A stretch of DNA of 64,000 nt from a virus, in IMG/VR virus record IMGVR_UViG_3300042991_000483, positions 1-64,000 of that record, one strand, 5' to 3'. The position numbers were made by a program, and so were the translations under genes. Below, piece after piece: positions 39,275 through 39,521 of this stretch. Position 1 is the stretch's first letter. Each line of letters opens with the position of its first letter. The notes beneath the pieces were generated by a model that searched no databases, was not told the origin of the DNA, and worked only from the letters and a program-made list of their open reading frames with translations.

Positions 39275-39288
39275 CACGCTATATAAAT
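39275..39288 (+). promoter_or_regulatory. Candidate late-type promoter CACGCTATATAAAT(A)
   Basis: The sequence GTTTCACGCTATATAAATAG contains a perfect TATAAATA, the T4 late promoter consensus. It drives the second Y-like RNA and the Ro N-part gene. Confidence 0.7.
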
Positions 39289-39291
39289 AGA

Positions 39292-39353
39292 ACCGATGGT
39301 GATCGGACGGATACTTCTTGAAAAAGTGCTCCCGTCCAACAATGTTCCTCGGT
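39292..39353 (+). ncRNA. Second Y RNA-like element upstream of ro
   Basis: ACCGA (39292-39296) pairs with TCGGT (39349-39353), extended by GG/CC across a bulged T exactly as in the first element; TGTTCCTCGGTCA is identical in the two. An inner stem GGACGG/CCGTCC (39305-39337) closes a 21-base loop. It has no tRNA-like domain. It starts almost at the expected transcript start of the 39275 promoter. The stretch 39354-39521 up to the ro start also holds a further GGTGAT copy (39368) and a hairpin CCAGAGGG/CTCCCTGG, and may be a structured leader. Confidence 0.55.
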
Positions 39354-39521
39354 CAAAAAGCAGGCGTGGTGATAGAGTCAGATACTTCACCCTCCCTTAA
39401 TCGGAAGATCAAAAAGAGCTGACTCGCTAGTTCCCGCCAACTATGCTTTCCCTGACCAGAGGGCCATAACGGCTCCCTGGTTTTCCGTTTTACTGGCCCA
39501 ACTTTGAATAGGAGGTGGCCA

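Follow-up and report, generated by a model that had tools for sequence, protein, structure and literature searches.

The leader of the split ro gene in the window (the whole 64-kb stretch of viral DNA analysed here) contains a 62-nt element, E2, which is likely to be a minimal bacterial Y RNA, i.e. a presumed Ro-binding module with a small hairpin and without the permuted tRNA mimic of YrlA. The module comprises a variable outer helix, a bulged T, an invariant GG/CC, an inner helix, an NTACTTC joint and GTTCC. Judged from the sequence, it is present in four copies (E1 to E4, Table 1), is homologous to ro-adjacent elements elsewhere and has a defined strand, and its helices are supported by covariation. 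The initial annotation suggested that E2 represents a second Y RNA consisting of nothing but the Ro-binding module; this homology, recurrence on the ro strand and covariation support that suggestion well, with Ro binding itself being presumed.

The bulged helix ACCGA(T)GG/CC-TCGGT described in the initial annotation is present exactly at 39292-39353. Its outer part, S1, pairs ACCGA (39292-39296) with TCGGT (39349-39353), T39297 is bulged, GG (39298-39299) is paired with CC (39347-39348), and the inner helix S2 joins GGACGG (39305-39310) to CCGTCC (39332-39337), giving the order ACCGA-[T]-GG-TGATC-GGACGG-ATACTTC-apical hairpin-CCGTCC-...-GTT-CC-TCGGT. The 13 bases said to be shared with the first element, E1, are likewise identical without exception (TGTTCCTCGGTCA, 39032-39044 and 39343-39355). 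A simple inner hairpin does stand in place of the tRNA mimic: the permuted tRNA-like domain (T arm, closed acceptor, D arm) is present in E1 and absent from E2 and E4, and E2 has a small apical hairpin. E4 follows the same plan as E2, with GGCG/CGCC as S1, a bulged T, GG/CC, GAGTCAG/CTGACTC as S2 and ATACTTC, and is separated from E2 by a spacer of 9 nt. The copies at 39064 and 39366, which had been taken as hints of degenerate repeats, are indeed further modules; however, they are not degenerate, being the 5′ halves of the complete elements E3 and E4, and the copy in E4 starts at 39365, not 39366. The bulged helix is the minimum-free-energy structure of each of the four elements folded alone, and in E1 it continues imperfectly to about 38890-39052. 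In E2 the outer helix has only 5 bp and is displaceable in model folds of longer transcripts, which weighs against the minimal Y RNA reading.

Table 1. Features of the ro leader and of the split ro gene in the window.
Feature	Positions	Strand	Basis
P1, promoter-like box GTTTCACGCTATATAAAT, before E1	38838..38855	+	exact 18-nt repeat; putative function
E1, long module with permuted (YrlA-order) tRNA mimic	38899..39041	+	R2, weak Rfam YrlA, fold
E3, CCGG[T]GG/CC-CCGG module	39062..39172	+	ARAGORN, fold, descriptor, R2
T1, terminator-like hairpin GCCCCCATGGGGGC and T-rich tail, after E3	39181..39211	+	-10.8 kcal/mol
P2, promoter-like box identical to P1, ending 4 nt before E2	39271..39288	+	exact repeat; putative function
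E2, minimal Y RNA module, 62 nt (likely)	39292..39353	+	sequence, fold, descriptor, covariance models R1 and R2
E4, second short module	39363..39438	+	R1 37.1 bits, E 5.9e-7; R2 E 1.4e-6
T2, terminator-like hairpin followed by TTTTCCGTTTT, between E4 and ro start	39454..39493	+	-16.8 kcal/mol
AGGAGG, ribosome-binding site of the N-terminal half of ro	39510..39515	+	sequence
ro, N-terminal half, 168 aa	39522..40028	+	50% identity to intact phage L001 Ro, E 3e-38
HNH endonuclease gene (NUMOD3, HNH_2), between the ro halves	40044..40664	+	Pfam
ro, C-terminal half (rest of TROVE and vWA), own SD and ATG	40669..41691	+	Pfam; L001 comparison

Within 39275-39521 a promoter-like box is followed by E2 and E4, then by a terminator-like hairpin and finally by the ribosome-binding site for the N-terminal half of ro, which begins 168 nt downstream of E2. 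On the basis of its sequence, the whole leader reads as two units, P1-E1-E3-T1 and P2-E2-E4-T2-ro, in which the boxes would serve as promoters and the hairpins as terminators. Up to three mismatches being allowed, the GTTTCACGCTATATAAAT box has three matches in the 64-kb window, compared to 0.04 expected, and a sigma-70 promoter scan returned nothing at P1 or P2. The start of E2 just behind P2 is consistent with its initial placement at the expected transcript start, provided that P2 acts as a promoter. The sequence CTATATAAA, a candidate phage promoter core, occurs exactly five times, always on the + strand (38846, 39279, 45345, 58625 and 59587). The stem of T2 comprises 11 pairs and one mismatch. 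ARAGORN calls a tRNA-Asp within E1 (38897-38971) and a tRNA-Ile within E3 (39082-39150), the latter stretch being tRNA-Ile-like with arms in the normal order; database records likewise annotate a tRNA-Gln (CcrColossus) and a tRNA-Ser (Gurke) inside such elements. These calls and annotations probably denote tRNA mimics rather than tRNAs. DNA similarity of 38820-39521 to known phages was looked for, and none was found.

A simple descriptor of the module gives four matches in the window, clustered within 540 bases of the leader, compared to 0.77 expected from 64 kb of shuffled sequence. Two covariance models were also applied. R1, built from 30 short elements (alignment A2) drawn only from the ro loci of other viruses and containing no window sequence, was run on the window with filters off and gave significant scores, with E-values that are rough owing to a shortened calibration, for E2 (37.7 bits, E 4.3e-7) and E4 only, the third-best match reaching 11 bits (E 1.6). 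R2, built from 32 long elements of viruses and bacteria and calibrated in the same shortened way, finds all four elements (E1, 74 bits, E 2.2e-17; E2, 32.4 bits, E 1.8e-6; E3, 23.9 bits, E 3e-4; E4, Table 1). It also assigns 32.4 bits to a true tRNA pair at 60016-60132, and its tRNA part is therefore not specific, a problem from which R1 is free.

The same module is found beside ro in other phages and in bacteria. A scan with GGTG...GTTCC is too narrow for CcrColossus (which has GGCG), and the descriptor was widened on the window and on loci L001, L007-L009 and L011, then frozen before held-out loci were searched. Ro is encoded on at least 466 viral and at least 450 bacterial contigs, of which 79 and 80, respectively, were sampled. 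In the 79 further viral loci the frozen descriptor gave 100 matches on the ro strand (in 56 loci) and one on the opposite strand, with 0.4 expected from dinucleotide shuffles; near relatives are included among these loci, and not all matches count as independent. Most viral elements lie upstream of ro, many of them by hundreds of bases (69 of 100, the remaining 31 being downstream), and 64 are short (61-95 nt) and 36 long. The bacterial loci yielded 129 forward and no reverse matches, and R1, a model of viral elements, gave 146 matches in them, all on the ro strand. The module is thus a general feature of such ro loci in bacteria and phages rather than specific to phages. A module confined to phages was rejected, as it is carried in the 80 bacterial ro loci sampled.

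In 16 other phage ro loci R1 has 30 matches with E up to 1, every one of them on the ro strand. The highest-scoring, a 62-nt minimal counterpart of E2 in Xanthomonas phage Usaquen (L011:3031-3092), reaches 71 bits. At L057:3333-3396 an element whose outer helix is identical to that of E2 forms part of a tandem trio before ro. A locus can hold up to about seven elements, often in tandem arrays, and of the 114 pairs of neighbours found in viral and bacterial loci, 51 are spaced by 0-15 nt, like E2 and E4. Seven elements can be recognized by eye beside ro in CcrColossus (L007 2350-3470) and five in the non-coding DNA beside ro in Usaquen; others occur in Brevundimonas phages, and crAss001 has an array downstream of ro. 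The initial annotation had named absence of the helix from related phage leaders as a refutation; the helix was looked for there and recurs, on the ro strand.

Both helices of the short type co-vary strongly. In A2, 95.4% of the cells are paired, a figure that is in part given by construction since pairing is a selection rule of the descriptor, whereas the strand asymmetry and the leave-window-out model are independent of it. Two-sided changes are seen in 134 cells, compared to 41 in shuffles. The covariation score of 0.822 compares with 0.206 for shuffled and at most 0.174 for slid alignments. RNAalifold, unprompted, recovers the same two helices. The long type has five co-varying helices, among them the T arm, the closed acceptor and the D arm of the permuted mimic (score 0.779, compared to 0.195 shuffled). 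Several long elements in alignment A3 retain an anticodon-arm-like hairpin before the T arm (e.g. GACTGTTAATCG, Asn-like), and the permuted mimic can therefore hold nearly all parts of a tRNA.

The elements might instead be hairpins that arose by chance in non-coding DNA and have a few bases in common, but the probability of this appears negligible. The core of the descriptor is short, and about 0.8 matches per 64 kb are expected by chance; however, four matches are clustered here, E-values from the leave-window-out model are about 1e-7 to 1e-6, and independent ro loci give 229 matches on the same strand versus one on the opposite strand. It is also very improbable that E2 and the other elements derive from tRNAs, whether as decoys, e.g. 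for host anticodon nucleases, or as degenerate remnants, and lack a specific role with Ro. Such an origin would account for the tRNA-like parts of E1 and E3 called by ARAGORN and for the tRNAs annotated within elements of CcrColossus and Gurke, and a decoy role has been suggested for the tRNA-like domain of Salmonella YrlA (PMC7790460). Yet E2 and E4 have no tRNA arms, it is the bulged helix with its joints and not the tRNA part that is conserved across short and long types, the association with ro is strong and restricted to the ro strand, and compensatory change maintains the helices instead of letting them decay.

The window elements share with YrlA (Rfam RF02553) the inner helix, the joint (AUGCUU corresponding to NTACTTC) and the location beside ro/rsr. 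YrlA has its T arm, acceptor and D arm in permuted order, an arrangement shared by E1 and many of its relatives but wholly absent from E2, and the Rfam model starts at the inner helix, omitting the outer bulged helix. At relaxed E-values this model detects E1 weakly (18.4 bits), gives no match for E2, and matches several long phage elements with E-values down to 8.6e-9, below the gathering score. All elements tested fall under the gathering cut-off of 69 bits, the best other phage element reaching 50 bits, and at this threshold Rfam calls no Y RNA in the window or in related loci. The matches, together with the alignment of the joint, tie the elements to published bacterial Y RNAs, and E2, in which the permuted tRNA-like domain is absent, is therefore classed as a minimal Y RNA rather than as YrlA. 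Animal Y RNAs (hY1-hY5) and the Y RNA of Deinococcus radiodurans have a bulged Ro-binding stem of the type CCGAnGGU.GUG. The 5′ strand of E2 (CCGATGGTGAT) appears to resemble this stem, a likeness that concerns the stem only, and animal Y RNAs have loop domains other than those of E2.

A Ro-family gene is also accompanied by more than one Y RNA in the rsr operon of Salmonella (rsr-yrlBA-rtcBA), in which yrlB and yrlA lie next to the genes for RtcB and RtcA (PMC7790460). Unlike this operon, the window virus has no RtcB, which is absent from phage L001 as well, but encodes a protein with an RNA_ligase domain about 10 kb away (900-aa open frame, 29495-32194, minus strand, domain at residues 544-734), possibly an RNA-repair partner of the Ro/Y system. 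In phages, YrlA was reported from mycobacteriophages in 2014, as cited in PMC12282133, and ro is an early gene in crAss001 (PMC8375218). Listeria phage CKA15 produces abundant early non-coding transcripts from less than 2 kb upstream of its Rsr homologue, which according to the authors might be Y RNAs (PMC12282133). In the leader of a relative of CKA15, Listeria phage P100, R1 found no match. Three stem-loops sharing AACAGCAATTACTA, one copy of which is AACAGCAAATACTA-like, are placed immediately before the Rsr/Ro gene of P100 (L016 25180-25440, minus strand; about 123180-123440 in the record), and these may be related to the abundant RNAs of CKA15 (PMC12282133).

Other ro loci carry apparent variants. 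Arrays upstream of ro in Bacillus phage G (L019 1580-2250) and Rhizobium phage Y65 (L013 2135-3280) feature the 5′ motif GATGCGG or GTTGCGA, an unchanged TTACTTC joint and a 3′ ATCTC, score weakly with R1, and apparently constitute a second sequence class of the module. Streptomyces phage Quantum (L017 1998-2410) has, upstream of ro, three elements that combine a TGCGA 5′ motif with a 3′ part of the GGTTAACC type and again contain GGTTACTTC; a terminator and ro follow. Downstream of ro, two Brevundimonas jumbo phages score above the cut-off for the Rfam permuted tmRNA (RF04321; L008 7298-7553 and L009 6889-7234). A literature search, outside of which stood the specialist papers of 2014 and 2018-2020, returned no account of arrays of short Y modules beside phage ro; the short class may in part have been described already in those papers on bacterial Y RNAs.

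The gene downstream of the array is itself split by an HNH endonuclease gene. Its C-terminal half is 44% identical to the intact Ro of phage L001 (E 3e-78), has TROVE and vWA_Ro60 domains above the Pfam cut-off and contains DVSGSM (DxSxS). A pattern scan with the N-terminal half alone found no viral relatives, though the protein is clearly Ro. The two halves meet at positions equivalent to residues 155 and 159 of L001 Ro, and Rfam calls no group I intron at the split gene (39522-41691). The histidine of ‘LSHIKP’ in Xenopus Ro has been implicated in Y RNA binding. The aligned histidine is retained in the C-terminal half, where the segment reads ISLRDILFLTHAKP, and the point of insertion lies just before the segment carrying this putative Y RNA-binding residue. 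Since the gene is in two pieces, the Ro protein of the window virus may be altered or dead.

The initial annotation had also proposed that Ro might control its own mRNA through E2. Such autoregulation is possible, and in about nine viral loci an element lies close to the ro start, but it is unproven because elements also occur downstream of ro and T2 separates E2 and E4 from the gene. The downstream elements, the tandem arrays and T2 are explained no less well by separate Y RNAs than by a leader acting in cis. That E2, together with E4, should act mainly in cis, with Ro binding its own mRNA and lowering its own synthesis, appears unlikely. Bound Ro would keep the helix of E2 closed and T2 free to form, and in its absence read-through would be permitted by pairing between the 3′ strand of E2 (CCTCGGTCA) and the 5′ strand of T2 (TGACCAGAGG). 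In keeping with this, E2 and E4 are preceded by a promoter-like box within the ro leader, and about nine of the 79 viral loci have an element whose end is 14-28 nt upstream of the ro ATG. In model folds the E2 helix and T2 come and go together for transcripts ending between 39470 and 39511, and the two states are predicted to lie within about 1 kcal/mol once T2 is complete. However, complementarity as good as that between E2 and T2 is reached by 5% of shuffled spacers, four strands having been tried, 31 of the 100 viral elements follow ro and many others precede it by hundreds of bases, and a leader would have no need of arrays with up to about seven members at one locus. The modelled antitermination switch between E2 and T2 is thus suggestive only. 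It seems improbable that E2 and E4 form a Ro-sensing attenuator, in which the level of Ro would be coupled to termination before ro and the terminated transcript would be the Y RNA product. If true, a Y RNA module that normally acts in trans would be used as a protein-controlled switch.

For E2 as a minimal Y RNA, transcription would start from P2 at the first base of the element, and most transcripts would end at T2, or be cut in the 9-nt spacer, to give short Y RNAs, read-through transcripts serving as ro mRNA. Animal and Deinococcus Y RNAs dock on the exterior of the Ro ring via the bulged helix, and the bulged helix of E2 would dock similarly on the outside of the ring. The minimal Y RNA may then cover or tune the RNA-binding surface of Ro, presenting no tRNA-like arm to partner enzymes. 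Because the short form lacks such an arm, long and short forms may have different jobs, the former as an adaptor, the latter as a gate or for storage.

Few bacterial Y RNAs have been studied experimentally. The element described here is a compact module of about 65 nt that is missed by the Rfam YrlA model and occurs in both short and tRNA-bearing forms. The short form separates the presumed Ro-binding part from the tRNA mimic, so that gate and adaptor functions would become separately testable, and the module offers a way to examine the abundant RNAs already published beside a phage Rsr gene.
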